Source: Thioalkalivibrio sp. K90mix
Lineage (GTDB): Bacteria; Pseudomonadota; Gammaproteobacteria; Ectothiorhodospirales; Ectothiorhodospiraceae
Direction of reading: 5' to 3'
DNA length: 64,000 bases
Assembly (NCBI RefSeq): GCF_000025545.1
Contig: NC_013889.1
Span: 1,977,501 to 2,041,500, forward strand
Shown here: positions 44,114 to 50,643 of the stretch, in pieces
Layout: every line of letters begins with the position of its first letter
How positions within the stretch are numbered: the first letter of the stretch is position 1
Position numbers and translations under genes: made by a program
The notes under the pieces: generated by a model
Databases searched by the model: none
What the model was told of the DNA's origin: nothing
What the model saw: the letters and a program-made list of their open reading frames with translations, nothing else

Positions 44114-44188
44114 ACCGAAGCGCCCGGTGCGCCCGGAAAGCACCAGCGGGTTGCGCAGACGGGCCTGACCGTGCGTACACTTCCCGTC

Positions 44189-45589
44189 ATGGCACAACTG
44201 ACCTTTCAGGGGGCGACCGGCGAAGTCACCGGGTCGCGTTATCTCCTCGAGACCGACGACGCCCGCATCCTTCTGGAATGCGGCCTGCATCAGGGCAACA
44301 GCGAGGCGGACGAGGCGAATCGCGCCTCGCTGACCGAGCTGGCGGAAACGATCAATGCGGTGATCCTGTCGCACGGGCATCTGGATCACTCGGGGCTATT
44401 GCCCAAGCTCGTGCGCGACGGCTACCGCGGGCCGATCTACTGCACACCGGGCACGGAGGAGCTGCTCGAGATCATGCTCGAGGACGCCGCGTTCGTGATG
44501 AGCAAGGACATCGAGTGGGAGAACAAGTGGCGCCGCCGCGCGGACAAGCCCCTGCTGGAGCCAATCTACGACATCGATGATGTCGCAACCACGCTGGGAC
44601 TTTGCCGGGCCATCCCCTACGGCGACACCCACACCATCGCGGGCGATGTCCGACTGACCTTTCGCGATGCCGGGCATATCCTCGGTTCAGCCATCGTGGA
44701 CCTGATCGTGCCATCCGGCGGGCGCGACCGGCACCTGGTCTTCTCCGGAGACCTCGGCAATGCCGACGCGGTCCTGATGCACGCTCCGACCCGCCCGGAA
44801 CACGCGGACCACGTGCTGCTGGAGAGCACCTATGGCAACCGCGACCACCGCCCGATGGACGAGACGGTCGAGGAATTTGCTCAAGTGCTGGCCGAGGCCG
44901 ACAAGAGCGGCGGCAACGTGCTGATCCCGGCCTTCGCCGTGGGGCGCACGCAGGAGATCCTCTACCACCTGAGCATGCTGCATCACGCCGGCCGCCTGCC
45001 GCAGCAGAAGGTCTTCCTCGACAGCCCGATGGCCATCAAGGTCACCGAGCTCTACGCCCGCCTGCGCCGGACGCTGGACCCGGAGGACATGGACCGGCTG
45101 CACCAGGCCGCGAACGGCGACCCGAACGGCTATCTGCCCGGGCTTCAGGTCTGCCGCACGGTGGAGGAATCCATGGCGATCAACCGCATCACCGGTGGCG
45201 CGATCATCATCGCCGGCTCCGGCATGTGCAACGGCGGACGCATCCGTCACCACATGAAATACAACCTGTGGCGACGCGAGGCGCACCTGGTGATCGTCGG
45301 CTTCCAGGCGGCGGGTACGTTGGGACGGCGGCTGGTGGACGGCGCCGAGAAGGTCAAGCTGCTGGGCGAAGACGTTGCAGTGAACGCGAAGGTCCACACC
45401 CTGGGCGGCTTTTCCGCCCACGCCGGGCGCAGCCAGCTGCTCGACTGGGCACGCGGTTTTCAGCACCAGCCGGTGTTCCATCTGGTCCACGGCGAGCCAG
45501 AAGCGCGCGAGGCCCTGGCCGCCGGCCTGCGCGACGAGCTAGGGGCCGAGGCGCATGTACCCGCCTTCGGCGAGACCATCACCCTGTAG
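44189..45589 (+). CDS. MBL-fold beta-CASP ribonuclease-like protein
   Basis: This 466-residue metallo-beta-lactamase nuclease is of the Cft2/CPSF73-like bacterial branch. Metal ligands are in HGHLDHSG, DAGHILGSA and FSGDLGN. The beta-CASP and RMMBL regions include GGFSAHAGR and HLVHGEPEAREAL. It is expected to cut or trim RNA. An in-frame GTG at 44171 is an alternative start; the ATG matches the family N-terminus MxLTFxGA. Confidence 0.92.
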   Translation: MAQLTFQGATGEVTGSRYLLETDDARILLECGLHQGNSEADEANRASLTELAETINAVILSHGHLDHSGLLPKLVRDGYRGPIYCTPGTEELLEIMLEDAAFVMSKDIEWENKWRRRADKPLLEPIYDIDDVATTLGLCRAIPYGDTHTIAGDVRLTFRDAGHILGSAIVDLIVPSGGRDRHLVFSGDLGNADAVLMHAPTRPEHADHVLLESTYGNRDHRPMDETVEEFAQVLAEADKSGGNVLIPAFAVGRTQEILYHLSMLHHAGRLPQQKVFLDSPMAIKVTELYARLRRTLDPEDMDRLHQAANGDPNGYLPGLQVCRTVEESMAINRITGGAIIIAGSGMCNGGRIRHHMKYNLWRREAHLVIVGFQAAGTLGRRLVDGAEKVKLLGEDVAVNAKVHTLGGFSAHAGRSQLLDWARGFQHQPVFHLVHGEPEAREALAAGLRDELGAEAHVPAFGETITL

Positions 45590-45610: not shown

Positions 45611-47281
45611 ATGCCGGAGGCCGAAGCCGTCAGCACCTATGCCCTGATCGCCGGCTTCCTCGGCGGTCTCGGGCTGTTCCTGCTCGGGATGACCCTGCTG
45701 ACCGACGGCCTGAAGACGGCTGGCGGCAAAGCATTGCAACACATCCTTGGGCAGTGGACCCGCACCCGGCCACACGCCCTCGCCTCGGGCATGGGTGTGA
45801 CCGCCCTCGTGCAGTCTTCCAGTGCGGTCACGGTCGCCACCATCGGCTTCGCCAATGCCGGCCTGCTGACGCTGGGCCAGTCGGTCTGGGTGATCTTCGG
45901 GTCCAACGTCGGCACCACCATGACCGGCTGGCTGGTCGCCCTGATCGGCTTCAACATCCGCATCGAGGCCTTTGCCCTGCCGGCGATCGGCATCGGCGCC
46001 CTGCTCTACCTGTTCATGAAGGCCGCACGCCCACGCTACCTGGGTCTGGCCCTGGCCGGCTTCGGCCTGCTGTTCTTCGGGATCGATGTACTGCGCGAGA
46101 CCTTCGAGGGTCTGAGCGCGACCTTCGACCTCTCCGCCCTCGCCCGACCGGGCTTCGCCGGACTGTTGATCATGGTCGGCATCGGCGCGTTGCTGACCGT
46201 GCTGATGCAGAGCTCGTCGGCATCCATGGCAATGGCCCTGACCGCCGCGATGAGCGGGGCCGTGCCGCTGGAGGCCGCGGCCGCCGCAGTTATCGGGGCG
46301 AACCTCGGGACCACGGTCAAGGCACTCCTGGTCGTGATCGGCGCGACCCCGAACGCCAAGCGCGTCGCGGCGGCCCACGTGATCTTCAACGGCCTGACCG
46401 CGATCGTCGCATTGCTGATCCTGCCCTGGTTCCTGGCCGCGATCGCCTGGATCTGGGGCAGCACCGGGGAGGCCCCGGCCCCGGCGGTACTGCTGGCGCT
46501 GTTCCATACCGCGTTCAACCTGCTGGGTGTGGCGCTGATGGTGCCTGTCGCCCCGCCGATGATCCGCTTCCTGCAGATGCGTTTTCGCACGGAAGAGGAG
46601 GACATCGCCCGGCCACGTTTCCTTGACCGGCACAGCGCCGGCGTACCGGACCTGGCACTGCAGTCGCTGCTGCAGGAGACGGACCGGCTGGCGGATATCA
46701 GCCACTCTATGGCGCGCGAGGCCCTGCGGGCCGATCCGCCAGCCGAGGGCAGCCTGGACACCCGCCGGGCCGCCGTCGAGCAGCTGACGGCGGCGATCAG
46801 CGATTTCGCCACCCGCACCGCCAACCACCCCATGCCGCAGGCGGTAGGACACGGGATCGCCGAGGTCGTCCGCATCGCCCGCTATCATCGCGAGATAGCC
46901 GTATTGGCCGAGCAGATCACCGACCTGCGCAGGCACTCCACCGGCGAGGAACGCCCAGCCGTCAGCGACCAGCGCCGCGCGTGGCAGGAGCAGGTCATCC
47001 GCGCCCTCGACCTGGCCAACCTCGAGCCCGAAAATGGCGAGAACATCGCGGCCGCCGAGGCCGTCCAATCGGTTGAAGTCGCCTATGCCGACCTAAAGGC
47101 CGCACTGCTGCGCGAGGGGACCTTCGGCTCGCTGAGCATGGCCGAGATGGAGCGGCAGCTGCGGATCATCAGCATGGCGCGTCGCCTGGTGACGCAGGCC
47201 GACAAGGCTCGACGCCACACCGAGAACCTGGAAAACCATCCTCGTGACATCGATTCGACACTGGATTCGGAAGCCGCATGA
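45611..47281 (+). CDS. Na+/phosphate cotransporter with PhoU-like C-terminus
   Basis: This 556-residue NptA/YjbB-type transporter has the two inverted QSSS repeats (QSSSAVTVATIGFANAG and QSSSASMAMALTAAMSG) in eight or so membrane helices. A cytosolic PhoU-like helical domain runs from about residue 340. It couples phosphate movement to Na+. Its stop overlaps the RNA-ligase start by 4 bases (ATGA). Confidence 0.93.
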   Translation: MPEAEAVSTYALIAGFLGGLGLFLLGMTLLTDGLKTAGGKALQHILGQWTRTRPHALASGMGVTALVQSSSAVTVATIGFANAGLLTLGQSVWVIFGSNVGTTMTGWLVALIGFNIRIEAFALPAIGIGALLYLFMKAARPRYLGLALAGFGLLFFGIDVLRETFEGLSATFDLSALARPGFAGLLIMVGIGALLTVLMQSSSASMAMALTAAMSGAVPLEAAAAAVIGANLGTTVKALLVVIGATPNAKRVAAAHVIFNGLTAIVALLILPWFLAAIAWIWGSTGEAPAPAVLLALFHTAFNLLGVALMVPVAPPMIRFLQMRFRTEEEDIARPRFLDRHSAGVPDLALQSLLQETDRLADISHSMAREALRADPPAEGSLDTRRAAVEQLTAAISDFATRTANHPMPQAVGHGIAEVVRIARYHREIAVLAEQITDLRRHSTGEERPAVSDQRRAWQEQVIRALDLANLEPENGENIAAAEAVQSVEVAYADLKAALLREGTFGSLSMAEMERQLRIISMARRLVTQADKARRHTENLENHPRDIDSTLDSEAA

Positions 47282-48378
47282 TCGAGCGCCACGTGTTACA
47301 GGAAGCCATCGACAACCGTCGCGCCGAGGCCCTGACCTTTGACGAGCTGGAATACGCCCGGCTACTGGAGCCGGTGAACCACTACCCGCGCGGTTCCGTG
47401 GTGCTGCCGGATGGCTCGGTGGTGCCCGGATACCCGTCGATCGGGCGTATCCAGTCGCTGGAGGCCGGACTGCCAAGGCAGTTCGAGCAGCCGTTCTGGG
47501 CGGAGGAGAAGATCGACGGCTTCAACGTACGTATCCTGCGCTGGCAGGGACGCGTCTATGCGTTCAGCCGCGGCGGTTACGTCTGCGCGTTCAGTACTGA
47601 CCGGGTCGTGGACTTCATGGACCCGGTCATTTTCAATGCCGAACCCAATCTGATTCTGTGCGCGGAGATCGCCGGGCCGGATACGCCGTACCTGGAAGGG
47701 TCCACGCCCCGGGTCGCCCATGACGTGGGCTTGTTCGTATTCGATCTAATGCGCCTGGGACAGCCCGGCTTCGTGTCCCAGCCAGAGAAGTTCGCGCTGA
47801 TCGAGCGCCACGCCCTGCCCCCGGCGCCCCTGCACGGGTGGTTCACCCCGCGCGACACCCGCGCCCTCGGCGAGCTGATCCGGCGACTGGACGAGGAAGG
47901 CGCCGAGGGACTGGTGCTGAAGACCGCGGACGGGCAGCACCGGGCCAAGTATGTGACCGGGAGCTCCTGCGTCTCCGATATCCGGGTCTGCGCGGAACAG
48001 CTACTGGACCTGCCACCGGAGTATTTCACCAACCGCCTGACACGGCTCGCGATCTTCCTGTCCGAGCACCCGGATCGACACCATGCCGACCTCGATCAGG
48101 CCCTGGGCCAGGCGCTGCTGTCAGGGCTCCATGGCGCGGTCGCACAACACCGCCGGCAGGGGCATGTCGGCCATCGCTATCGCTGCCGCTTTCGCGAGCA
48201 TGCCAGCGCACTGCGTTTCATGAACCACATGCGCGCCACCGGTGGGCGCCACGTCAGCTTTGCACAGGACGCGCCGCGCCAGGAAGATGGCTACTGGCTG
48301 CTGGAGTTCGAGCGCCAGTTCGACCGCATCACGGGCACACTGGCCTCCGCCCTGGCCGGCGACCGCCAGTACGACTGA
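47278..48378 (+). CDS. ATP-dependent RNA ligase, Pab1020/Rnl3 family
   Basis: This 366-residue nucleotidyltransferase-type ligase has motif I WAEEKIDGFNVR with the adenylated lysine K78. It also has motif III-like LCAEIAGPDTPYLEG and GLFVFDLMRL, motif IV GAEGLVLKT and motif V RAKYVTGSS. A C-terminal helical region from about residue 240 fits the dimerisation domain of this mainly archaeal family. The family joins or circularises RNA ends in vitro; its bacterial substrate is unknown. Its start overlaps the phosphate transporter stop. The convergent HARP gene lies 13 bp beyond its stop. Confidence 0.88.
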   Translation: MIERHVLQEAIDNRRAEALTFDELEYARLLEPVNHYPRGSVVLPDGSVVPGYPSIGRIQSLEAGLPRQFEQPFWAEEKIDGFNVRILRWQGRVYAFSRGGYVCAFSTDRVVDFMDPVIFNAEPNLILCAEIAGPDTPYLEGSTPRVAHDVGLFVFDLMRLGQPGFVSQPEKFALIERHALPPAPLHGWFTPRDTRALGELIRRLDEEGAEGLVLKTADGQHRAKYVTGSSCVSDIRVCAEQLLDLPPEYFTNRLTRLAIFLSEHPDRHHADLDQALGQALLSGLHGAVAQHRRQGHVGHRYRCRFREHASALRFMNHMRATGGRHVSFAQDAPRQEDGYWLLEFERQFDRITGTLASALAGDRQYD

Positions 48379-48391
48379 CCCGGGTCCGGGG

Positions 48392-48982
48392 TCAGGCGCC
48401 GGGGCGCTCCGCCTCCGCGAGATTCTCCATCACCCGGCGCAGGTAGTCGGCCGTGACCAGCTTGATCCCCATGCGATTGCCCAGCTTGCGCATGCCCTCG
48501 TCGGCACTGGCCAGCTCGGCATCGAGTTCCATCGCCAGCAGGACGGCATCGACATCCTCGCGCGAATCCACCAGGCCCTTGCGCATGGCCTCGCGAAAGC
48601 GTTCGCGCAGCTGGGTGATCAGTTCCGGCTTGAGCGATTCGGCTGCACCGGCCTGGCGCGTGTGCTCCTCGGCGATGCGCAACCCCCGGTCAATGCGCGT
48701 ACGCACCTCGTCGATGAACTCGTAGAGGATGTCGCTGGGCAGCGTCAGGGCGAAGCGGCGCGGGGAACGCACCCAGACCACGGTCTCGAAATCCGCGGCC
48801 AGGGCCTCGAGATCGCGCATGCCACGAAACTCCTCGTACACCGACAACGGCATGTAGAACTCGGCCGGGCAGTCCCGCGCCAGGTGCAGGAAGGTCCGCA
48901 GGATGTCCTCCGGGTCCGCGCCAAACTGGCCCGCCACATGCGGGTTGGTGAACACGCTGGTATCCAGCACGAAGCGGCGCAT
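48392..48982 (-). CDS. HARP-type protein-only RNase P (RNA ligase partner protein)
   Basis: This 196-residue PIN-domain protein begins MRRFVLDTSVFTNP with the metal-ligand D7. The acidic group D139, D143, D145 and D161 (DSREDVDAVLLAMEL and SADEGM) follows a central helical hairpin. This matches UPF0278, the RNA ligase partner family, whose Aquifex member is the HARP enzyme that removes tRNA 5' leaders without RNA. AGGAGG stands 5 bp before the ATG. It is convergent with the RNA ligase. Whether it is the main RNase P or works beside an RNA-based one cannot be told here. Confidence 0.87.
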   Translation of the reverse strand: MRRFVLDTSVFTNPHVAGQFGADPEDILRTFLHLARDCPAEFYMPLSVYEEFRGMRDLEALAADFETVVWVRSPRRFALTLPSDILYEFIDEVRTRIDRGLRIAEEHTRQAGAAESLKPELITQLRERFREAMRKGLVDSREDVDAVLLAMELDAELASADEGMRKLGNRMGIKLVTADYLRRVMENLAEAERPGA

Positions 48983-49118
48983 CACGACCTCCTGTCGGGT
49001 TCGTTCTCCATCATCGGCGGCGGCCGGAAACCCGTCAACCAGGCCCACCGTACAATCGGCGCTGGGGGCACCCTGTGGCATAATCGCGCCTGACCTCCCA
49101 GCCATACAGGGACGACCC

Positions 49119-49970
49119 TTGGCCACCCGCGCGGAAGTGGAAAAATTCCTCGAGCGCCTGCGCTCGGATCTGGAACGCCAGCAGATCGACATCCCGACCC
49201 TGCCGGATATCTCCGTGCAGGCGCTGTTCATCGTGCAGGACGACACCAGCTCCATCGCCGATCTGGTCAACCTGATCTCTCGCGATACGGCGCTCGCCAC
49301 GCGGCTGGTGCGTCATGCCAACAGCCCTGCCTATCGGGGACTGAGCCGCTGCGCGACCATCCGGTCCGCAGTGACCCGCCTGGGGATGGAGCGGGCGCGC
49401 CAGACCATCATCGCCCTGTCGATGAAAGAGGTGTTTCAAAGCGGCAACGACGCGATCCGGCAGCGCATGGAGGCGTTGTGGAACCACAGCCTGGAGGTGG
49501 CGATCATCAGCTATCTGCTGGCCCACCGGCATCCCCACCTGGACCCGGATACCGCCCTGCTTGCCGGCCTGGTGCACGACATCGGCATGATCCCGATCCT
49601 GCGCCGCGCGGAGAAGACACCGGCGATCTACGAGGACCCGCGCGCCCTGCAGGCAGCGGCGGACGCCGCGCACGTGGCGATCGGCCGCGCAATGCTGAAG
49701 AACTGGAACTTCGAGCCGGAGATCATCCGCGCGGTCGCCGACCACGAGAATCTCCAGCGCGAACCGGAGCCCGAGTCCCCGATCAGCTACAGCGACGTCG
49801 TACAGGCCGCGAACATCGAAAGCCATGTCGGCACCCCCCACCGCCTGGCCCACATCGATCGCGAAGGGGTCGCTGCACTGCGCCGCCTGGCGCCGCGTTC
49901 GTCCAACCGGGATCTGGACTGGGAAGGCGACGCGATCGGCCTGGAACACGTCAACCAGATCATCGAGTAA
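49119..49970 (+). CDS. HDOD-domain signalling protein
   Basis: This 283-residue HDOD-only protein has the N-terminal LPDISVQALFIVQDDTSSIADL and a central helix bundle, with VHDIGMI inside. HDOD proteins regulate signalling, motility or surface behaviour by protein binding. The TTG at 49119 is chosen because GGGAC precedes it and the conserved region begins soon after; GTG at 49137 is an alternative. It is divergent from the HARP gene. Confidence 0.85.
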   Translation: MATRAEVEKFLERLRSDLERQQIDIPTLPDISVQALFIVQDDTSSIADLVNLISRDTALATRLVRHANSPAYRGLSRCATIRSAVTRLGMERARQTIIALSMKEVFQSGNDAIRQRMEALWNHSLEVAIISYLLAHRHPHLDPDTALLAGLVHDIGMIPILRRAEKTPAIYEDPRALQAAADAAHVAIGRAMLKNWNFEPEIIRAVADHENLQREPEPESPISYSDVVQAANIESHVGTPHRLAHIDREGVAALRRLAPRSSNRDLDWEGDAIGLEHVNQIIE

Positions 49971-50052: not shown

Positions 50053-50643
50053 ATGACCCTCCAACTGGTGTACGTCAGCCGCGCGGCCTTCGCGCCTCAT
50101 GCCCATGCCGCCCAGGGTATCGAGCCCGAGGTCGGGCGGATCCTGCTGCAGTCGCGCCAGAACAACCCCCGGGCCCGCATCGTGGGCGCCCTCTATTACG
50201 GCGACGGCCACTTTTTCCAGTGCCTGGAGGGTGAACCCGAAGCGGTGTACGCGACCCTGGAGCGCATCCGCCGCGACCCGCGCCACGAAGAGATCACCGT
50301 ACTGCGCGAGCGCGAACTGGAGCGCCCCGGCTTCGGAGAGTGGTCGATGAAGTATGTACCCGCGGCCGGCGAGGTGCGCGCCCTACTGCAGCAATTCGGG
50401 CAGCGTCGGTTCGATCCCTTCGGCTTCGACGACCAGCAGATCGAGGCGATGCTGGATCTCTTGCGCAGCGGACGCGACAGCGAGCTGGAGGCGGCACCCG
50501 CGACCAGCGGAAGCACGCCTTCAACGAGCCACGCCCCGCCGGGCGATTGGCGCCGCCAGTTGGCCCTGGCGGGCTGGGTCGCGGCCGCCGTAACCGCAGG
50601 CATCGCCGGCACGGCAGGCTATCTGTTCCTGGCCGGGGCCTGA
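50053..50643 (+). CDS. BLUF blue-light receptor with C-terminal membrane helix
   Basis: This 196-residue protein has a full BLUF domain (about 2-98). The flavin-network residues match AppA by spacing: Y7, N38, Q56 and W97, in LVYVSRA, SRQNNPRAR, HFFQCLEG and EWSMK. A linker of about 60 residues leads to a hydrophobic helix at about 168-195. It should bind FAD and sense blue light at the membrane. GGGAAG precedes the ATG. Confidence 0.92.
   Translation: MTLQLVYVSRAAFAPHAHAAQGIEPEVGRILLQSRQNNPRARIVGALYYGDGHFFQCLEGEPEAVYATLERIRRDPRHEEITVLRERELERPGFGEWSMKYVPAAGEVRALLQQFGQRRFDPFGFDDQQIEAMLDLLRSGRDSELEAAPATSGSTPSTSHAPPGDWRRQLALAGWVAAAVTAGIAGTAGYLFLAGA

Follow-up and report, generated by a model that had tools for sequence, protein, structure and literature searches.

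HARPs are protein-only homologues of RNase P, and the Rnl3 enzymes are ATP-dependent RNA ligases of the Pab1020 type. The linkage between the two families has been published by Seshadri and Gopalan (mBio 2025, PMC12153264); their co-occurrence and neighbourhood have thus been known in print since 2025. That work raised two questions, namely why HARP is accompanied by an RNA ligase and what role HARP plays where an RNA-based RNase P also exists. The catalytic aspartates of the Aquifex aeolicus HARP, Aq880, are given as D7, D138, D142 and D161 in passages of PMC8266387, and arginines of the helical domain are required for cleavage of precursor tRNA (pre-tRNA) in other HARPs, according to parts of PMC9051087 and PMC8266387. 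Here we describe the pair found in a stretch of 64,000 nucleotides from Thioalkalivibrio sp. K90mix (the window; C1:1977501-2041500 of a two-contig, 2.99-Mb genome, G000). The pair is real and conserved, and we consider it very probable that its two enzymes are functionally coupled.

The ligase and HARP genes are arranged tail to tail, with their stop codons enclosing 13 bp (Table 1), as the original prediction, made from the sequence alone, had described. Its two identifications are also borne out. The ligase scores 270.1 bits against TIGR01209 (cut-off 136.9) and exceeds the cut-offs of the Pfam models RNA_ligase (PF09414) and Lig_C (PF18330, the Pab1020 C-terminal region). Its closest solved structures are 3qwu and PAB1020 2vug, and the family and structure matches span nearly its full length. 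Across 73 bacterial ligases, the window's included, conservation reaches at least 97% at K78, D80, G81, E210, G211, K215 and K224; the nucleotidyl-transfer residues K78, E210, K215 and K224 are thus all present, K78 being the KxDG lysine, alongside the motif IV glutamate and the motif V lysine.

The HARP, whose nearest named relative is that of Thioalkalivibrio sp. ALJ21 (99%), scores 216 bits against TIGR03875 (cut-off 95.3) and also matches Pfam PIN_5 (PF08745); these scans used a longer upstream reading frame, in which the matches begin at residue 107-109. Seven RNA-free ribonuclease P sequences of the PDB match it, the best solved match being 7og5 (E 1.4e-78), identified in part of PMC8266387 as the Halorhodospira halophila HARP. 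Residues D7, D139, D143, D145 and D161 lie at the predicted places and are invariant in 73 bacterial HARPs (window included), D7, D139, D143 and D161 being the catalytic aspartates. Also present are R102, R109, R126 and R130, whose match to the published cleavage arginines follows from offset and spacing. Among the 73 HARPs, R126 and R130 are kept in all and R102 in 72, while position 109 is arginine in 29 and lysine in 43. With its catalytic aspartates invariant and its cleavage arginines kept, the HARP retains a tRNA-cutting apparatus whatever its role in these bacteria. The ratio of non-synonymous to synonymous substitution (0.009-0.084 for HARP and 0.05-0.19 for the ligase, 14 comparisons) indicates purifying selection on both genes.

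The prediction depended on the two genes being neighbours more often than chance would allow, and they are. Among 369 genomes sampled evenly from the class, 17 carry HARP and 15 a ligase over cut-off, and every one of the 15 also has HARP; 12 of these 15 pairs are adjacent, and all 12 are convergent. Fisher's p for the co-occurrence is about 7e-25, a guide only because the sampled rows are related species. A ligase over cut-off is lacking from two of the 17 HARP genomes (G448, with a 27-bit fragment, and G394, with no match), both of them drafts of hundreds of contigs, and weak ligase matches of 20-21 bits occur in two more genomes that have no HARP. Within the genus, the ligase is present in 30 of 30 genomes and HARP in 29; the exception is a draft, 66% complete, in which the ligase ends 61 bp from a contig end. 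The pair is adjacent and convergent in 27 of the 29 genomes with both genes, and is on separate contigs in the others (G007 and G013). Outside the genus, a search of 17 further members of the family and 49 further members of the class gave no HARP match, and none of them has a ligase over cut-off (one weak 20-bit match, in G082). Co-occurrence and adjacency in the class sample together imply that the pairing has not arisen by chance.

Scanning genome_contigs yielded 441 HARP relatives, and the loci studied are the best 80 of the 441, those closest to the window HARP, all bacterial by title. Twenty-five of them form a near group, comprising 24 titled Thioalkalivibrio and L065. The ligase is present at 61 of the 80 loci and convergent with HARP at every one (a looser single-sequence search puts it at 62, being 23 of the 25 near loci and 39 of the 55 others; we have adopted 61). 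Counting the window, there are 62 pairs: 24 have overlapping coding ends, with an overlap of 4-54 bp, 36 have a space of 1-88 bp, and two are more widely spaced, at 187 and 1070 bp. The overlapping pairs belong to Aquificota (18), Verrucomicrobiota (three), Tectomicrobia (one) and gammaproteobacteria (two, L106 and L114). Overlaps in the Aquificota measure 27-30 bp (L098-L103 except L100, L117-L120, L123-L125, L127, L128, L130-L132 and L134) and open with TAATCAAACACAAG, of which the opposite strand encodes the last ligase residues, LVFD, and the start of the stop codon. Five haloarchaeal plasmid records carry HARP, and the two that also have the ligase (L052 and L053) have it divergent, head to head. 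Tail to tail is therefore the bacterial arrangement in this material, in which the archaeal sample for orientation is those five records. Carriage of HARP by viruses was rejected: viral_contigs yielded no confirmed relative.

At 19 of the 80 loci no ligase adjoins HARP. In 16 of these the genome has a ligase elsewhere over cut-off, in one case (L110, handle G122) only a piece; L113 is at a contig end, so that adjacency is possible there, and in the other 15 split pairs the two genes are separate, to judge from the drafts. Of the remainder, L096 has a below-cut-off fragment, and L108 and L133 have no match in the genome, the contig of L133 stopping 114 bp beyond HARP. The split pairs that are present in the tree belong to several clades.

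Trees of 73 HARPs and of their 73 ligases are broadly congruent, with a distance correlation of 0.90. Both recover the same main groups, including the Halorhodospira group and a placement of Tectomicrobia next to Aquificota; they disagree in detail within groups, have several long branches and are unevenly supported. The comparison was made without a species tree and does not separate vertical descent from joint transfer. Of 81 rows offered to the trees, eight were dropped: L088 and L093 were too short, and L068, L069, L096, L108, L110 and L133 had no entered ligase sequence (L068, L069 and L110 have a ligase elsewhere, which was not added).

Is the pair tied to the presence or absence of an RNA-based RNase P? 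The original prediction guessed that the host would also have the RNA-based enzyme, and both of its genes are found in the genome, rnpB with 328.6 bits at C1:2328647-2328993 and rnpA with 69.4 bits. Most likely, then, housekeeping 5' maturation of tRNA in this host is carried out by the RNA-based RNase P, with the HARP-ligase pair in a side role. Under stricter filters, which may lose weak matches and which were used for the genus and for 50 HARP genomes, rnpB was matched in 24 of 30 genus genomes (23 over cut-off) and not in the other six. These six include G017 and G018, drafts that are 96% and 99% complete; both have HARP and ligase, and the missing rnpB probably reflects draft gaps. In four genus members (G002, G009, G016 and G022) the rnpA match contains one internal TGA.

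The 50 HARP genomes derive from 53 loci outside the core genus, with L079, L088 and L114 left out. Here rnpB was found in 23, comprising 23 of 24 non-Aquificota and none of 26 Aquificota, and the ligase is over cut-off in 47, comprising 22 of the 24 and 25 of the 26. A search for rnpA gave the same division (47 of 49 non-Aquificota handles, 0 of 24 Aquificota). The ligase thus accompanies HARP with or without rnpB, implying that the association is not tied to the RNA-based enzyme. No other RNase P was found in the Aquificota, and HARP is therefore probably essential there. Fibrillarin is over cut-off in none of the 73 handles with both genes (68 distinct genomes as judged by matching coordinates, five of which carry two handles in this and the rnpA search), Nop proteins and C/D RNAs not having been searched; short sub-threshold matches, mostly of about 45 residues, occur in 18 of the 73. 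Four of 14 control genomes are over cut-off.

The best single mechanism that we can propose is a cut-and-seal pair, in which HARP and the ligase would share a tRNA or tRNA-shaped substrate that is first cut and then sealed; we judge the chances of this to be evenly balanced. The HARP, as a PIN-domain endonuclease, would produce a 5'-phosphate end on such an RNA, and the Rnl3 ligase would join this 5'-phosphate to a 3'-hydroxyl, closing the RNA either by circularisation or by resealing of a break. RNase P leaves a 5'-phosphate. Since Rnl joins a 5'-phosphate with a 3'-hydroxyl, as passages of PMC9014305 report, the ends of the two enzymes are compatible. That both act on the same RNA, that this RNA is tRNA-like and that cutting comes before sealing are the parts that we infer, and the role in tRNA repair or circular RNA that the original prediction read from the sequence is possible. 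A bolder version would make the bacterial pair a self-contained device that cuts and seals tRNA or RNA of tRNA shape, with a function separate from the C/D box role proposed for archaea; the pair would be passed on as a single unit in four or more phyla, and its overlapping tail-to-tail mRNAs would restrain each other. Overlapping convergent transcripts are described as a regulatory device in part of PMC7154746; taken as a whole, this version seems to us unlikely.

Several points weigh against a cut-and-seal pair. To our knowledge, no substrate has been described in any bacterium. The ligase is missing from two of the 50 HARP genomes and reduced to a below-cut-off fragment in one, and, in a search that covered the plasmid records and not the chromosomes, three of the five haloarchaeal HARP plasmids gave no ligase match. 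The control genome of Haloferax volcanii matches the HARP model and gives no match to the ligase model, and whole circular tRNAs occur in this organism, as part of PMC12558985 reports; such circles can thus arise without an Rnl3 ligase, which weakens the case for a circular whole tRNA as the Rnl3 product in haloarchaea. Recombinant HARPs of four bacteria, one of them a Thioalkalivibrio, are related in passages of PMC12153264 to have shown no pre-tRNA processing, in contrast to the H. halophila HARP, which part of PMC8266387 describes as active. No growth defect followed the knock-out of HARP in two archaea or of the ligase in a third (PMC12153264). Finally, overlapping ends may tie the two genes to each other, which could in part explain why they have stayed adjacent.

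This last point also belongs to the alternative that survives best, namely that the two genes are retained independently and share no substrate, HARP serving as a robust reserve RNase P, the ligase serving in general RNA repair, in hot, salty or alkaline habitats, with their adjacency simply inherited. The hosts of the pair do come mostly from such habitats (PMC12153264), and the overlapping ends of 24 of the 62 pairs can hold neighbouring genes together. In G000 no RtcB match was found, so that another RNA ligase would be useful; no link between RtcB and the pair is evident, however, since RtcB occurs in 32 of 68 genomes, mixed between holders and non-holders. We nevertheless regard independent retention as doubtful, given that in the class sample every one of the 15 genomes with the ligase also carries HARP, that neither gene is over cut-off in the 17 other family members searched, and that pairs which have become separated in several clades still keep both genes.

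A more specific proposal is that the pair repairs tRNA, HARP clearing 5' ends that are damaged or wrongly extended, and the ligase resealing breaks with 5'-phosphate and 3'-hydroxyl ends. The tRNA-binding residues of HARP are mostly kept, the ends are compatible (as in the passages of PMC9014305 noted above) and the lack of an RtcB match in G000 would suit such a role. We found no tRNA substrate reported for the Rnl3 family, however, and the same paper, in part, reports that knock-out of the Thermococcus ligase left circular tRNA intermediates unaltered; repair in this specific sense appears distinctly improbable. We give similarly little credence to a pair resembling a toxin and antitoxin, in which HARP, as a PIN nuclease, would damage RNA under stress and the ligase would mend the breaks. 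The idea is mentioned in PMC12153264, and HARP is a PIN_5 protein. The genes are, however, convergent in all 62 pairs and so do not form an operon of the VapBC kind, the pair is near-fixed in the genus, and HARP is probably essential in the Aquificota, where no other RNase P was found. HARP is, moreover, under strong purifying selection. Such selection is unusual for toxins. Maturation of C/D box small RNAs, with HARP trimming their 5' ends and the ligase circularising them, was put forward in PMC12153264 and agrees with the loss of circular C/D box RNAs in a Thermococcus Rnl knock-out (in passages of PMC9014305), but with fibrillarin below cut-off in all of the 73 handles searched this coupling does not carry over to bacteria, for which we reject it as highly improbable, although it may hold in archaea.

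The genes around the pair do not supply a third partner. The start of the ligase gene overlaps the stop of the Na/Pi cotransporter gene by 4 bp (ATGA, 47278-47281), so that the ligase is possibly translated from the cotransporter mRNA. The cotransporter gene is near HARP in 11 of the 25 near loci and in none of the 55 others; for the beta-CASP gene the figures are 11 of 25 and 2 of 55, the latter, by a rough estimate, not far from chance. Both upstream genes are thus clade-local. The two outside loci with beta-CASP relatives are L071 and L106, where they occupy different positions. Of the seven window neighbours tested besides the ligase, each is near HARP in at most 2 of the 55 loci that lie outside the near group. 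When the neighbours at 56 chosen loci were clustered all against all, antisense open frames blurred the outcome, which serves as a hint only. The beta-CASP/RMMBL protein resembles the aCPSF1 and type VII CRISPR Cas14 models, far below both cut-offs. On the other side of HARP are a gene for an HDOD protein and, downstream of it, one for a protein with a BLUF blue-light sensor domain and, by eye, a hydrophobic C-terminal stretch.

On either strand, the 13-bp space together with the stop codons could fold into a hairpin of 7 pairs, which is not clearly conserved in relatives. When the folding of 32 distinct junctions was compared with that of shuffled spaces, nine ranked at the 10% level or lower (median 0.28). 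This excess is mild only and does not support a conserved RNA or terminator in the junction; Rfam gave no match at gathering score within the window.

Table 1. The ligase-HARP pair and the features around it (columns: feature, position in the window, strand, remarks)
Rnl3/Pab1020-type ATP-dependent RNA ligase	47278..48378	+	366 aa; ATG 47278, stop ends 48378
HARP (UPF0278, PIN_5), protein-only RNase P homologue	48392..48982	-	196 aa; ATG 48982, stop 48392
Space between both stop codons	48379..48391	.	13 bp
AGGAGG, ribosome-binding-like, 5 nt before HARP ATG	48988..48993	-	read in sequence
Na/Pi cotransporter family gene	45611..47281	+	directly upstream of ligase; family/domain models
Beta-CASP/RMMBL metallo-hydrolase, RNA-processing enzyme type	44171..45589	+	two genes upstream of ligase; family/domain models
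HDOD protein	48903..49970		start possibly as late as 49119; upstream of BLUF gene
BLUF domain protein	50053..50643	+	

The bacterial data narrow the answer to the published question of why an RNA ligase accompanies HARP. That answer should not need C/D box RNAs, should be independent of whether an RNA-based RNase P is present, and must fit a tail-to-tail layout in Pseudomonadota, Aquificota, Verrucomicrobiota and Tectomicrobia. Thioalkalivibrio and other cultivable bacteria in which the pair is adjacent permit a direct test.

The association in PMC12153264 concerns the same two families, with the same co-occurrence and neighbourhood, and lists Thioalkalivibrio among the bacterial holders. Its main text does not describe the tail-to-tail arrangement or the overlapping ends, whereas the bacterial pairs studied here are all convergent; a literature search found neither orientation nor overlap described, and no further paper on the pair among the matches listed. 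What is added to the published linkage is thus the convergence, the overlapping ends, the independence from RNase P, the fibrillarin result and the retention of HARP residues. Compared with the archaeal Rnl3 ligases Pab1020, MthRnl and TkoRnl, the window ligase matches the family model and structures over almost its full length, but its host is bacterial and has no fibrillarin match. The window HARP shares its PIN_5 family and catalytic aspartates with Aq880, and by offset its R126 and R130 correspond to R125 and R129 of that enzyme; the Aquificota HARPs sampled are 48-56% identical to it. In A. aeolicus, however, the HARP is the sole RNase P, whereas in Thioalkalivibrio sp. K90mix it stands beside an RNA-based one.

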